Notes under the pieces: model-generated | Database searches by the model: none | What the model was told of the DNA's origin: nothing | The model's input: the letters and a program-made list of their open reading frames with translations, nothing else | Shown here: one piece after another, positions 4,183-11,504 of the stretch | How the letters are laid out: the number at the start of each line of letters is the position of its first letter | Position numbering within the stretch: position 1 is the first letter of the stretch | From: Candidatus Woesearchaeota archaeon | GTDB taxonomy: Archaea; Nanobdellota; Nanobdellia; Woesearchaeales; JASKKU01 | DNA length: 37,430 nucleotides | Direction of reading: 5' to 3' | Assembly: GCA_030154045.1 (NCBI GenBank) | Contig: JASKKU010000006.1 | Location: 1 to 37,430, forward strand | Program-made: the position numbers and the translations under genes

Positions 4183-4770
4183 TTAATCCTGCCTTTTTAT
4201 AGATATGTAGCCTTTTGCAGTATGTGTATCTGATGAAGGGTTTGAACCTTTGAAGAAGTAATTTACTTGAATCTCACCTTCAAAGTTTTTTACATTTTGC
4301 AAGGCATTAATATCATTAGGAAATAGTGTGATTTTAAACACAGAGTTTTTTGTGAGGTTTAAACTATAACCAGGATAAAACCCCCCGTCAAATTTATAAA
4401 TTAAACAGTATTCTTCTGTGTAAACATCATTGCAATTTTCATCATGCGCCGAACGCACCGCATGTGAATCAACCTGTGGTACCCAGCTAAAATCAAATCT
4501 GTTTAACTTATCCTTTATACTTATATTTCTTATTCCTAAGTCGGTTTGAGCATCGTTTGAAATGGATAATTCTAAAACATCTCCTTTCCAGACAGCACCC
4601 AGGCAGTTTATAGAAGAATAAATCTTGCAAACATCTGATTTGGTTGAAAGGATGTCCGTGCCAATAACATTGTATTTTGCCAATGCTGCAATAACCCCTA
4701 GAGTTAGGATTAGCATCCAGCCATAAGTTGCCAAAAATTCCACGCTTGCCTGGGACTTTTTTGAGTTCAT
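4183..4770 (-). CDS. Type IV pilin-like protein with class III signal peptide (downstream copy)
   Basis: The 195-residue protein begins MNSKKSQASVEFLATYGWML: a short basic leader followed by the QxSxEF motif and a hydrophobic helix (~residues 9-33). This is the class III signal peptide processed by EppA/FlaK-type prepilin peptidases in archaea. The rest is a soluble, beta-rich head with a Cys pair spaced as C-x8-CLG (CKIYSSINCLG) just after the helix. The 5' end overlaps the upstream paralogue by 4 nt, so the two are cotranscribed. Related proteins form pili or pseudopilus-like structures; whether this one is polymerised is unknown. No secretion ATPase or peptidase gene is in the window. Confidence 0.8.
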   Translation of the reverse strand: MNSKKSQASVEFLATYGWMLILTLGVIAALAKYNVIGTDILSTKSDVCKIYSSINCLGAVWKGDVLELSISNDAQTDLGIRNISIKDKLNRFDFSWVPQVDSHAVRSAHDENCNDVYTEEYCLIYKFDGGFYPGYSLNLTKNSVFKITLFPNDINALQNVKNFEGEIQVNYFFKGSNPSSDTHTAKGYISIKRQD

Positions 4771-5285
4771 TCTTGTCTTGAAACCGTGATTAAGCCTTTT
4801 GTGAAATGGACAGTATTGCTATTGTTGAAATAATAATTTACAAGGATTGAACCTTTTAAATTTTTTTCATAAACAGGGGTTGTGTTAAATAAAGTGAAAA
4901 TGAGTTTTGAACCTTGGGGTAAAACAACCTTATCATCTTGGGTAAGGCAAGATGAACCGTTGAGGGTTATGCAGGAACCAAGGCTTGAGTTGAAAACAAA
5001 AATCGGCTTATAATCGCTTGACTTGGTTATGGTGATGTTTGAAACTAAGATGTTAGCTTGGCCGATATTTCTTAATGAAATCCTTAGTTCGTTTTGGTCC
5101 ATCCAGGAACTGCCAAGACAGTCAAACTGGTCAAAGATGGAACATTCTTCGTTTAGTGAGTATAAGGAGAAGTTTTCGTTGTAATAAACTAACACAGCCA
5201 TAACAACCGTGGTTACCAAAACTATCCAAGCGTAGTTCATAAAGAATTCAAAACTTGCCTGTGCTTTGCGTTTTTTAGTATGCAT
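4767..5285 (-). CDS. Type IV pilin-like protein with class III signal peptide (upstream copy)
   Basis: The 172-residue protein starts MHTKKRKAQASFEFFMNYAW, again a basic leader plus QxSxEF and a ~22-residue hydrophobic helix. It is paralogous to the downstream gene: both have the order helix, Cys, CLG, a W three or four residues later, then ISL/ISN strand and NITI. The ATGA overlap with the downstream gene indicates translational coupling. The pair may be a major/minor pilin or a heteromeric pseudopilin. An A/T-rich element near 5310-5320 lies about 25 nt or more upstream and could be the promoter. Confidence 0.8.
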   Translation of the reverse strand: MHTKKRKAQASFEFFMNYAWIVLVTTVVMAVLVYYNENFSLYSLNEECSIFDQFDCLGSSWMDQNELRISLRNIGQANILVSNITITKSSDYKPIFVFNSSLGSCITLNGSSCLTQDDKVVLPQGSKLIFTLFNTTPVYEKNLKGSILVNYYFNNSNTVHFTKGLITVSRQE

Positions 5286-5387: not shown

Positions 5388-6743
5388 TTACTCCCCAAAT
5401 ATTTCGTTTATATGCTGTTCAAACGCGTCTAATCCATCTATTACTCTACTTGCGGTTTCTGTTGGCATATCTGAGACTCTGTAATAATCGTTAGTTGGAG
5501 TCTTTATGACAAAAAGAAAGTCTCTAAGGTCTCCAAGTTCTTCATGTTGCATTGCAAAGCTGGGTGGTCCCCGTGGTTGGTAAAAGATTGATTGATAGAT
5601 TGTAACCCCCACGCCGTATGGTTCCCTAAAATATTCATTATCAGTACCAACTGTTACTGCAACAATGTTCCCTGTATCTTTGCTGTAAGCAAAGATGCTT
5701 TCAATGCTCTGATCATAAATTAATTGGACAGTTCCTAGAGGTTCTTCGCTCGCAGTATGGCCGTCAAAATAATAAACTCCTGTTTTGAAATAGAACTCAT
5801 CTTTATGATAAATTTTGAATTCTTCAAGAATACCGCTAGTGGATTGAGAAGTTTCATTTTTAAGTATTTCTAGGAGTGTTTCTGGTGAAGGAGCAAGTAT
5901 TCCTTTATCAGTTACTGTATATTCAATTCCTACAATATCCAAAAAGTCAGTCATGGTTTTTACTTCTGGAAAATCTGAGAAACGTGAGTATATTATAGAA
6001 GTGTCATAATAAACCATTGTACTTTGTTCACAATCCCAATCTATTAACTCTCCAGTTCCATAAACCGAATTTATCGCTATCGTATTAAACTTACCAGTAT
6101 CTTTCAATGAAACAAGACGCAGAATTCTACGATCATCTGGTGAATCAGATTCTCTTAAGTCAAAATATGCCATAAACCCTATATCAGCAAGGGTTCCATT
6201 ATTAACTATGTCATCTGTTAAGAGTTCTAACTTGTTAACTAAGTCAGGGTTATGCCTGCCAAAAATAGGAATAGGTTGTTCAGCACCTAACTCAGCGTCA
6301 TACTTTAATGTTACTGGATTTTTACCAGGGATCTCTGCTTCGATCCTAATTGGATATTTTTCTATATTGAATTCATATACATAGCTATCAACATAAATCT
6401 TATAATGCTTCTGAATTTGGTTTTCAGAGCCTTCTGCTTGAACATAATCTTCAAGCAATTTAGTATCATGTTTTCCATATACTGTTATGTTTGCTTGGGT
6501 CGCATTCTCTAGAATGAGACCAAAACTAACATAAGCATCTCCTACCTTAAGGTCAGTACTTTGTTCATCAACTTGAAGGTTTGAGATGATCATTGTAGGA
6601 TTGTTTTTAGAAATGACTGGCGGTTTGGTGCAAGAATTTGTAAAAAACATGCTAACGAAGGCAGCTGCTCCTATGAGCAAAGATTTTCCGAAACCTAATT
6701 TCTTTTTTGAATATTCTTTATCAACTTTTGTATCAAGACTCAT
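5388..6743 (-). CDS. Predicted lipoprotein, tandem paralogue A (family unrecognised)
   Basis: I do not recognise the family. The 451-residue protein starts MSLDTKVDKEYSKKKLGFGK, an unusually long charged leader, then a hydrophobic stretch ending FFTNSC (Cys38), a plausible though imperfect lipobox (-3 is Thr, not Leu). The mature part is mixed alpha/beta. It shares with the adjacent gene the motifs F-x-RHNP-[DE]-LV, NGTL, ILAPSPETL/LLPSAQMM, SIFAYSKDTGNI/SSFAFSKETGNI, the PRGPPS motif, and the terminus HINE[IL]FGE. It therefore arose by tandem duplication. An AGGTGG (6748-6753 on the minus strand) precedes the ATG by 4 nt and fixes the start. Likely anchored on the outer face of the membrane; ligand unknown. 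Confidence 0.75.
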   Translation of the reverse strand: MSLDTKVDKEYSKKKLGFGKSLLIGAAAFVSMFFTNSCTKPPVISKNNPTMIISNLQVDEQSTDLKVGDAYVSFGLILENATQANITVYGKHDTKLLEDYVQAEGSENQIQKHYKIYVDSYVYEFNIEKYPIRIEAEIPGKNPVTLKYDAELGAEQPIPIFGRHNPDLVNKLELLTDDIVNNGTLADIGFMAYFDLRESDSPDDRRILRLVSLKDTGKFNTIAINSVYGTGELIDWDCEQSTMVYYDTSIIYSRFSDFPEVKTMTDFLDIVGIEYTVTDKGILAPSPETLLEILKNETSQSTSGILEEFKIYHKDEFYFKTGVYYFDGHTASEEPLGTVQLIYDQSIESIFAYSKDTGNIVAVTVGTDNEYFREPYGVGVTIYQSIFYQPRGPPSFAMQHEELGDLRDFLFVIKTPTNDYYRVSDMPTETASRVIDGLDAFEQHINEIFGE

Positions 6744-6770
6744 ATTACCACCTTTGAGTGGGTATTTTTG

Positions 6771-6794
6771 TTAAGTTTAAATATTTTTCTAAAA
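6771..6794 (-). promoter_or_regulatory. Duplicated promoter element of lipoprotein A
   Basis: This 24-nt sequence recurs exactly at 8267-8290 upstream of the paralogue. On the minus strand it contains the TATA-like AATATTTAAACTTAA, about 36-38 nt before the ATG, leaving a ~12-nt leader that includes the AGGTGG ribosome-binding site. Confidence 0.6.
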
Positions 6795-6802
6795 TGCAAA
6801 TT

Positions 6803-8239
6803 TCACTCTCCGAATAACTCATTTATGTGCTCTTCAAATCCATCAAGAGCGTTGATTACTTTATTCTTTTCTTCTTCAGGCAACTCACCTACTCTAAAGA
6901 AAATCAACGAAGAGGCTGGTATTTTTATATATTCCCCTCCAGGAATAAATCCTAATTGTTTTGAAGGTGGTCCTCGTGGAAATCTAAGTCCTATTATGTC
7001 AAGGTAGAGATCAGAGTAAAGCGGTGATGACATCTCTTTATATCCATCAGGTACATTTATGAATATTGCCATGATGTTTCCTGTTTCTTTGCTGAATGCA
7101 AATGAACTATCTACTCTTGGGTCATCATCATGTAACAGATATACTATCTTAGGATTATCTTTATATATATAGTAAGTGTCATAATAAACTAGTCTTTTTT
7201 CTAGATGGAATGTACCATAGGCGTATCTTTTAATAAGGGTTTCAATTCCTCTGTATATAGATGTTTCTTCTGAAAACTGTTCTGCCATCATTTGTGCTGA
7301 AGGAAGTAGAAGACCTTTATCAGTTACTTGATAAGGTATGCCTGCAATATCAAGAAGCGACTCCCAGTCCACAGCTGTTGGAAAATCATCGAAGAATGGG
7401 ACATATATCTCACCTCGTTCATAGTAAATTTGTGTTGCATCCGGTGGTTGAGATTGGTCTTCATCAAACAACATTCCTATACCGCGATTTGAAGCAACAA
7501 CAAAATAATTTGTGTTCGCTTTTATATCTCTATTAGAAGTCATATCGAGAAACTTTCCTGGATATGTTTCGTCTGCGTCCCAATAACAAGTTACAATGAA
7601 ATTTGTTAAGGTTCCATTATCAAGAATCTCGTTTTTGAAGGTTTCTAACTTGTCAACTAATTCAGGATTATGCCTACAAAAAACAGGCGTTTCTGCCCTT
7701 AAATCTGTAGCAAATGTAAGAATAGTTGCCGGATTATCTTGTGATGGGATACTTACTTTAATCTCGAAATGATATGGCCAAATGGTATAATACATGGTAA
7801 TTGCAGCTAAATCAAGAAAATAGTGTTTGCTTATAGTTGTAGAACCCTCCTCAGCAAAAAGAGTTTCGTCAATGTATGGCCATTTTTTGCCATTTCCATA
7901 GAAAGCTATATATGCTTGTGTAGCATCTTTTATCTCTACATCAAAACTAACTTTTGTTTGTGTTAAAACATAATTTTCCTCCTTGCGAGTTTCTAGATTA
8001 TATATCTTAAGTTCCGGATTTAAACTTTGATTGGTGGCATCTGTAGAATCGCTTGTGGTGTCCGTAGAATTGTTTGTGGTTTCTGTTGAACTTGGGGTCG
8101 GGTTGTTGACGGGAATGTAATTATCAACACATGAAAGAGAAAATAATCCTGCCAAAGCCAGTCCAGTAACAAGCAAAGATTTTCCGAAACTCAACTTTTT
8201 TTCTGAATATTCTTCATCGATTTGTGTATCAAGACTCAT
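6803..8239 (-). CDS. Predicted lipoprotein, tandem paralogue B (family unrecognised)
   Basis: The 478-residue paralogue of the downstream gene starts MSLDTQIDEEYSEKKLSFGK, nearly the same leader, followed by a hydrophobic stretch ending LFSLSC (Cys37). After the Cys there is a Ser/Thr/Asn-rich linker of about 35 residues (SSTETTNNSTDTTSDSTDAT), typical of exported proteins and possibly glycosylated; paralogue A lacks it. The mature regions are much more divergent than the first 23 residues. The 3' end is 59 nt from the start of paralogue A. An AGGTGG (minus strand, 8244-8249) lies 4-5 nt before the ATG. Function unknown. Confidence 0.75.
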   Translation of the reverse strand: MSLDTQIDEEYSEKKLSFGKSLLVTGLALAGLFSLSCVDNYIPVNNPTPSSTETTNNSTDTTSDSTDATNQSLNPELKIYNLETRKEENYVLTQTKVSFDVEIKDATQAYIAFYGNGKKWPYIDETLFAEEGSTTISKHYFLDLAAITMYYTIWPYHFEIKVSIPSQDNPATILTFATDLRAETPVFCRHNPELVDKLETFKNEILDNGTLTNFIVTCYWDADETYPGKFLDMTSNRDIKANTNYFVVASNRGIGMLFDEDQSQPPDATQIYYERGEIYVPFFDDFPTAVDWESLLDIAGIPYQVTDKGLLLPSAQMMAEQFSEETSIYRGIETLIKRYAYGTFHLEKRLVYYDTYYIYKDNPKIVYLLHDDDPRVDSSFAFSKETGNIMAIFINVPDGYKEMSSPLYSDLYLDIIGLRFPRGPPSKQLGFIPGGEYIKIPASSLIFFRVGELPEEEKNKVINALDGFEEHINELFGE

Positions 8240-8266
8240 TATACCACCTTGTAGTGAGTATTTGAT

Positions 8267-8290
8267 TTAAGTTTAAATATTTTTCTAAAA
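8267..8290 (-). promoter_or_regulatory. Duplicated promoter element of lipoprotein B
   Basis: Exact 24-nt copy of 6771-6794, at nearly the same distance from its ATG (8239). The conservation of promoter sequence in otherwise diverged spacers suggests that the two genes are expressed together or by the same factor. Confidence 0.6.
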
Positions 8291-10787: not shown

Positions 10788-11504
10788 CTATTTTCTTATA
10801 ATAGTATTCAATTTCAGAACGATTGTAAAAAAGAGTGTATCTAAAGCTAATGCTTCTGTAATGCTTAATATTAAAAACTTCAAGAAAAAAGATTGCGGCA
10901 GGTTTAGAATTAATATTGAATTTCTGGGAAAAGTGTAATTCCCTTGCGGGAAAAAGATTCTATGGAAAGTCTCAAAAAACAAACTAAATCCTAAAGCAAC
11001 AGTTAGAATAAAAACAGCAAAGATAAGCAAGCTCACAACGAAACCTTTTTTGAAAGTCTCGTTTATTATTCTATTTGTTGTTATTCTATTTGTGAATACT
11101 AAGATTAAAACCAGTACCGCTAGAACTAAAAGCAATGAGCTTGAAAATAGCAATAGTTTGTTCATCAGGGTTTTTACATCAAGCATATGCAGTGCTTCTT
11201 TAACTGTCAATTGTTGAAGGTATTCGCTTTCATTAATATTTGTTACATTTGAAGAAAGAAACAAAGTCGTGCTTTTTACAAATTCTCTATTTATGTTTTT
11301 ATTACAAATTATGTAAGCATAAGGCAGTCTTGAATTAATTATAACAATTAAAGTAGATGTTAATAGAAAAAAACTAAGAAAGAATAAAATAAAAAAACCA
11401 AAACCAACGAATTCTGCGCGTTTGATTTTATAGACAATATGATTGAGATTCTTTATAAATGTTTCCTGGAACCTGTGCTTTGTCGAATGTTTTATTTTTC
11501 CCAA
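10788..11504 (-). CDS. Multi-span membrane protein of unknown function
   Basis: I do not recognise this 238-residue protein. It has about four hydrophobic segments: ~33-57, ~115-139, ~153-178 and ~204-228. A ~55-residue extracytoplasmic loop rich in Asn/Ser/Thr lies between the first two, and a basic cytoplasmic N-terminus precedes them. The longest frame starts at TTG 11504 with no clear ribosome-binding site; no in-frame ATG exists before the first membrane segment, so the start is uncertain. It lies 58 nt downstream of the membrane-anchored regulator on the same strand, and the two may be cotranscribed. A role as partner or target of that regulator is conjecture. Confidence 0.6.
   Translation of the reverse strand: MGKIKHSTKHRFQETFIKNLNHIVYKIKRAEFVGFGFFILFFLSFFLLTSTLIVIINSRLPYAYIICNKNINREFVKSTTLFLSSNVTNINESEYLQQLTVKEALHMLDVKTLMNKLLLFSSSLLLVLAVLVLILVFTNRITTNRIINETFKKGFVVSLLIFAVFILTVALGFSLFFETFHRIFFPQGNYTFPRNSILILNLPQSFFLKFLILSITEALALDTLFFTIVLKLNTIIRK

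Follow-up and report, generated by a model that had tools for sequence, protein, structure and literature searches.

The extended signal peptide region (ESPR) of autotransporters is an N-terminal extension ahead of a normal signal peptide. Two papers on autotransporters concern this region (PMC2805444, PMC8151025), and the parts of two further papers drawn on here describe, for Gram-positive bacteria, signal peptides of the YSIRK/GXXS type, whose motif directs the precursor (PMC12004944, PMC11841062). On the archaeal side, a section of a 2025 review reports that homologues of the bacterial components of lipoprotein biogenesis have not been identified in archaea (PMC12186497). Here, we used a computational approach to study a window of 37,430 nt, which makes up contig C9 in an archaeal genome of 805 kb (29 contigs, 95% complete) and which carries genes for TFB, a RIO kinase, TYW3, and a class II tRNA synthetase. 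Within it lie two tandem genes, A and B, whose products share a long leader ahead of the hydrophobic core with two further proteins of the same genome, C and D.

The A/B pair and its genomic site

The original prediction described A and B (Table 1) as paralogues that share the first ~23 residues and diverge widely thereafter, a description borne out by 18 identical residues out of 23 in the leader (86% of nucleotides) and by 37% residue and 51% nucleotide identity outside the n-region. The exact 24-nt element, the GGTGG ribosome-binding site, and the C-terminal HINE[IL]FGE were each confirmed as common to both genes. The 24-nt element starts 51 nt ahead of the ATG in A and in B, where an archaeal BRE/TATA box would be expected to sit, and because its next-best ungapped match in 383,680 genome bases reaches only 19 of 24 positions (n = 4), close to one Markov control (n = 3), the identical pair is not due to chance. 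Nineteen of the 27 nt between element and ATG are identical as well, and in the 60 nt upstream of the element identity falls to background (17 of 60), so the duplicated unit consists of promoter plus gene. The element and its flanking identity thus support the tandem duplication with promoter that had been proposed.

Table 1. Positions of genes A and B and of their parts in the window
Feature	Position	Strand	Basis or remark
Gene A, exported protein, 451 aa	5388..6743	-	ORF; homology to B, C, D
Gene B, exported protein, 478 aa	6803..8239	-	ORF; linker after signal is Asn/Ser/Thr-rich
A leader n-region, residues 1-23, MSLDTKVDKEYSKKKLGFGKSLL	6675..6743	-	
B leader n-region, residues 1-23, MSLDTQIDEEYSEKKLSFGKSLL	8171..8239	-	
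A Cys38, lipobox-like TNSC	6630..6632	-	Does not fit the lipobox pattern used, owing to Asn at -2
B Cys37, lipobox SLSC	8129..8131	-	
A 24-nt promoter element, BRE/TATA-like position	6771..6794	-	Putative TATA role
B 24-nt promoter element, identical to A's	8267..8290	-	
A ribosome-binding site GGTGG	6748..6752	-	
B ribosome-binding site GGTGG	8244..8248	-	
A residues 46-155, predicted Ig-like beta-sandwich	6279..6608	-	pLDDT and VIA Z
A Thr357-Gly-Asn359, core of the [DE]TGN[IL] motif kept in 4/4 paralogues	5667..5675	-	
A PRGPPS	5559..5576	-	Present in A and B only
A C-terminus HINEIFGE	5391..5414	-	
B C-terminus HINELFGE	6806..6829	-	

The nearest relative, G001, is the only other genome of the same taxonomic family in our searches, and its gene order is that of the window: TYW3, Lit-like, PHP-like, TFB, two pilin-like, RIO, KaiC, and propeller genes (TFB being 87% identical, Lit assigned by Pfam, and the others named by reading their translations). 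A and B are absent from G001, where 11 nt lie between the listed TFB and first pilin-like ORFs at the same site. Given that the searches of the taxonomic order gave no convincing relatives of the pair, we favor a gain of A/B here rather than a loss in G001. For C and D, the neighbors in G001 are not syntenic or the contig is too short.

Two further features of the neighborhood were noted. Downstream of A, two pilin-like proteins (window 4183-5285, minus strand), without a significant Pfam match, bear class III-like signal sequences of the form QAS.EF by reading. About 2.5 kb from gene B, the window encodes a membrane protein of Pfam family Lit, the lipoprotein intramolecular transacylase (10788-11504, minus strand; PF07314, 8.9e-12), which scores under the cut-off of NCBIfam TIGR01906 and has a syntenic homologue in G001 (3.1e-11).

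Family members and predicted domains

Searching the genome with A recovers B and C (466 aa, on contig C21) and gives a weak match (E 0.057) to a leader lying at one end of contig C10; the same leader scores E 0.002 when A's leader alone is the query. At their starts, contigs C10 and C14 share an identical stretch of exactly 90 bases that falls within one gene; through it, the C10 leader continues into an open frame of 476 residues on C14, and together these make up D. The overlap marks an assembly break at which the two contigs could be joined. With composition adjustment off, blastp gives E values of 4e-69 for A/B, 7e-26 for A/C, 1e-13 for A/D, 1e-22 for B/C, 6e-9 for B/D, and 2e-17 for C/D. 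After removal of the leaders, and with default settings, the values are 6e-57, 5e-13, 3e-4, 6e-14, 0.003, and 2e-12 for the same pairs. C is homologous to A and B across most of its length; D's three matches span just 127 to 171 residues once the leaders are removed; if the leader is kept and composition adjustment is switched off, D matches A and B along most of its length. At E 0.01, a profile built from A to D, and therefore matched by all four, detects no additional member in the genome. Just downstream of D, we observed a run of small exported proteins whose N-termini look pseudopilin-like by reading (L039:1600-8750, plus strand, contig C14), and on the other side a divergent gene for the STT3 oligosaccharyl transferase.

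In agreement with the original prediction, the family is not a recognized one: Pfam, NCBIfam, and PHROGs give no match near cut-off, and PDB sequences give none up to E 10. Matches below threshold are 15.8 bits for full-length B against DUF402 in Pfam (cut-off 23.9), a family that reaches E 0.006 in one of the four second domains, and 15.8 bits for A against S2_P23 in NCBIfam (cut-off 150). The proposed family signature did not hold, as PRGPPS and RHNP are both restricted to A/B and missing in C and D; a [DE]TGN[IL] motif is present in all four. A proviral origin was also considered and rejected, the best PHROG reaching E 0.024 in one of the four members.

Beyond this genome, no convincing relative was found in the 351 other genomes of the taxonomic order. 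A alone, against 99 genomes, matches only its own at E 0.01. The A-D profile matches its own genome, G339 (E 0.0018), and G086 (E 0.005 and 0.009) among 352 genomes of the order, and its own genome, the same G086 places, and G385 (E 0.008) among 371 genomes of the phylum. The matches that were read, L045 (G339), L048 (G086), and L069 (G385), are two methyltransferase-like ORFs and a differently built Cys/Asp-rich protein, and we regard them as chance; the second G086 place, L046, is a frame of 90 residues and lies outside this reading. Pattern scans, run twice on genome contigs and once on viral contigs, gave 133, 31, and 122 matches, none of which was confirmed.

AlphaFold2, run on the four-sequence alignment, gives good confidence only in the first domain (approximately A 46-155), apart from short helices, with ten-residue pLDDT means there mostly at 72 to 87 and dips to 38 to 48. 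VIA aligns this domain with Ig-like sandwiches at Z up to 9.4 (rmsd 4.2, ~100 aligned residues), a score that barely exceeds VIA's stated background, is shared by many tied rows, and concerns a common fold in a four-sequence model. The predicted fold resembles the Ig-like domains of GH2 glycosidases and similar beta-sandwiches, yet the match is limited to the first domain, and from so common a fold no function follows. The second domain, modeled alone, reaches a pLDDT of 50 and a pTM of 0.52; its best Foldseek E is 0.011, and its VIA matches reach Z 4.5 at most. Two ideas about this domain gained no support: a LolA-like fold, suggested by strand order, for which no LolA stands among the Foldseek or VIA rows listed for a weak model, and the Mediator Med18/20 and triphosphate-tunnel rows, with Z up to 4.5, below background.

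Export signal and lipid anchoring

The four proteins are exported and probably located on the cell surface. K/R precedes the core in each, without RR in the first 45 residues, and the hydrophobic stretch, as read from the sequence, covers roughly 12 to 16 residues. The net charge of the n-region is +3 in A, -2 in B, +6 in C, and +1 in D, B's value being unusual for a Sec signal, and the first ten leader residues carry a net charge of -1 to -4 in all four. Compared with the other lipobox proteins of the genome, the n-region is long, as had been noted from A and B: the lipobox Cys is at position 37 in B, 38 in A, and 47 in C, and at 20 to 28 in six other proteins, all of which lack the SLD..[VI]D..Y motif found in the leaders of A to D. 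Two more lipobox candidates have a late Cys (39 and 42), and their starts may be over-long. Among 46 ORFs with a single N-terminal hydrophobic segment in the 383,680 bases surveyed, several have n-regions longer than 20 residues, and a long n-region by itself is therefore not unique.

The designation of the pair as lipoproteins fared unevenly. Judged by a PS51257-like lipobox pattern, it is fair for B and C, which fit the pattern and are plausibly lipid-anchored, doubtful for A, which fails with Asn at -2, and unlikely for D, which has no lipobox Cys and for which a lipid anchor is not expected. N-glycosylation sequons are not enriched, and the idea of a glycoprotein on this basis was dropped.

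A signal peptidase II of bacterial type is encoded in the genome as well (LspA; L063:8822-9301, minus strand, contig C7), whereas the 2025 review cited above reports no such homologues for archaea. The protein matches PF01252 at 2.4e-27 and TIGR00077 at 83.2 bits, above the NCBIfam equivalog cut-off of 73.95. It contains the stretches NPGAAFGLL, GNLIDR, and FNLAD, and its contig also carries RadA, archaeal-type IF-2, and SecY. No Lgt was seen in motif scans of the ORFs, which are weak evidence, and archaea may use another transferase in its place. The presence of LspA beside short-leader lipobox proteins bears on the processing of archaeal lipoproteins.

Conservation of the leader and its explanation

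Upstream of the hydrophobic core, all four paralogues carry SLD..[VI]D..Y, with S-L-D, the Asp, and the Tyr invariant. Identity in the n-region is 78% for A/B and 38 to 61% for the other five pairs, with bodies at 24 to 37%, and within the A/B alignment the leader scores highest of all 23-column windows (18 identical columns; 14 in the best window elsewhere). The original claim of stronger conservation in the leader than in the mature part therefore stands on average, in six of six pairs, but not as a unique property: over the 16 residues from SLD, body windows equal the leader's score in five of the six pairs (15/377, 0/366, 26/364, 7/389, 12/373, and 10/371 windows reaching it). The possibility that the leader might occur on other exported proteins was not borne out, since A's leader finds only A to D in the genome, up to E 10; being confined in this genome to four homologues, it is not a general address tag. 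That search is the independent test, as the four leaders match their own profile by construction, at 61 to 82 bits. Across 287 genomes of the order, this profile matched 129, its own included, at E <= 1, and among the matches listed nothing foreign fell below E 0.001, the foreign ones reaching at most 19.6 bits and a best E of 0.0014 over part of the model; in its own genome it also matched D's second contig piece and, at E 0.25, a place with two stops. An ATG-anchored degenerate DNA pattern occurs at three places in the genome (A, B, and D, C having no ATG there); it is absent from the remaining 351 genomes of the order, in which two places match its backward control.

Several explanations can be weighed against these data. 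The body patches that equal the leader, and the long n-regions of other single-segment proteins in the genome, favor the reading that this is an orphan exported family whose leader is an ordinary conserved patch kept by generic signal-peptide and start-region constraints. We consider this rather unlikely, as generic constraint is not expected to keep S-L-D, a spaced Asp, and a Tyr at 24 to 28% body identity, and the motif is missing from the six short-leader lipobox proteins. The A/B likeness might also stem mainly from recent gene conversion at the 5' end (promoter, ribosome-binding site, and first codons), an alternative that the original prediction had itself raised, or from a young partial duplication, so that no leader function would be needed. 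The same codons are used in 13 of 17 cases in the A/B n-region against 6.7 expected (binomial p 0.002), an excess that may reflect a young 5' end, and the noncoding identities (24/24 nt in the element, 19/27 nt in the spacer, then 17/60 nt just upstream) fit as well. However, the A/B bodies likewise share codons in excess (84/149 against 62.3 expected), the difference between n-region and body is not significant (Fisher p 0.13), and the A/B n-regions differ in five residues and silently in four more codons, which indicates that the stretch was not freshly copied. C and D, moreover, hold the same motif without a clear same-codon excess: the five non-A/B pairs, pooled, use the same codons in 28 of 54 cases against 23.4 expected, so that amino acids rather than DNA appear to be kept, with the reservation that these codon numbers are small and the leader comparison covers paralogues only, not species. 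Since C and D keep the motif in other codons, gene conversion is not the sole explanation, and as the main source of the A/B likeness we regard it as unlikely.

Equally unlikely, in our judgment, is an N-terminus that serves as an uncleaved membrane anchor, with SLD..[VI]D..Y as a cytoplasmic tail binding a cytosolic partner and the Cys incidental; the leader that D keeps without a lipobox Cys, A's poor lipobox, and the charge of the segment in all four (net -1 to -4 over the first ten residues) would suit it, but the good lipoboxes of C and B, the presence in the genome of LspA and of lipobox proteins with short leaders, and a hydrophobic stretch of only some 12 to 16 residues argue against it. 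More doubtful still is the reading of SLD..[VI]D..Y as an archaeal extended signal-peptide code, read by a cytosolic factor or a defined Sec/SRP patch and steering these surface proteins, whether or not they bear a lipid anchor, to a single place or export route; if true, its role would be comparable to that of YSIRK in Gram-positives.

On balance, we lean toward a family restricted to this lineage, whose members are surface proteins exported by Sec, in part lipid-anchored, with an Ig-like first domain and an n-region kept by selection. Within this four-member family of surface proteins, A and B would be a tandem duplicate, promoter included. Export would proceed by Sec via a signal peptide in which the long n-region with SLD..[VI]D..Y leads into a lysine-containing stretch, followed by the hydrophobic core. 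A lipid on the lipobox Cys would hold B, C, and perhaps A, and D, without Cys, would be cleaved by signal peptidase I or remain N-anchored. Outside the membrane would lie the Ig-like domain and the second domain, roughly 290 residues, both free to diverge, as in many ligand- or partner-binding surfaces, a role that these domains may share. The pattern of residues and codons points to selection on the n-region at the amino-acid level; in the simplest case, the n-region would help to present the family's signal peptides to the export route. It is possible that the leader has a function of its own, and that it serves retention or targeting is a guess. Counted against the preferred explanation are the weak lipobox of A, the Cys-less D, the net charge of -2 in B's n-region, the body patches that match the leader, the limitation of the leader comparison to paralogues, the lack of sequon enrichment, the Ig-like Z close to background, the poor model of the second domain, and the fact that no Lgt was seen.

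Orphan surface proteins whose role is unknown are numerous in small archaeal genomes, and such families are common; the leader and the LspA observation add some testable edge to this one. It makes a clean, small case: the paralogues number four, G001 has the site without A and B, and the leader lends itself to mutation independently of the body. Among known systems, the autotransporter ESPR is alike in being an N-terminal extension, a comparison by description and not by sequence, and differs in that no outer membrane or autotransporter is known in the present case. The likeness to YSIRK/GXXS lies in a conserved signal-peptide motif on a subset of surface proteins, whereas here the proteins are archaeal, the motif is unrelated by reading, and it marks one four-member family and no unrelated proteins. 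Also comparable are the lipobox proteins of Haloferax, which, in the parts of the literature drawn on here (PMC2945643, PMC12186497), are likewise exported with a Cys after the hydrophobic core; unlike them, A to D lack RR in the first 45 residues and show LSSC, SLSC, or TNSC instead of LAGC, and the present genome carries a bacterial-type LspA.
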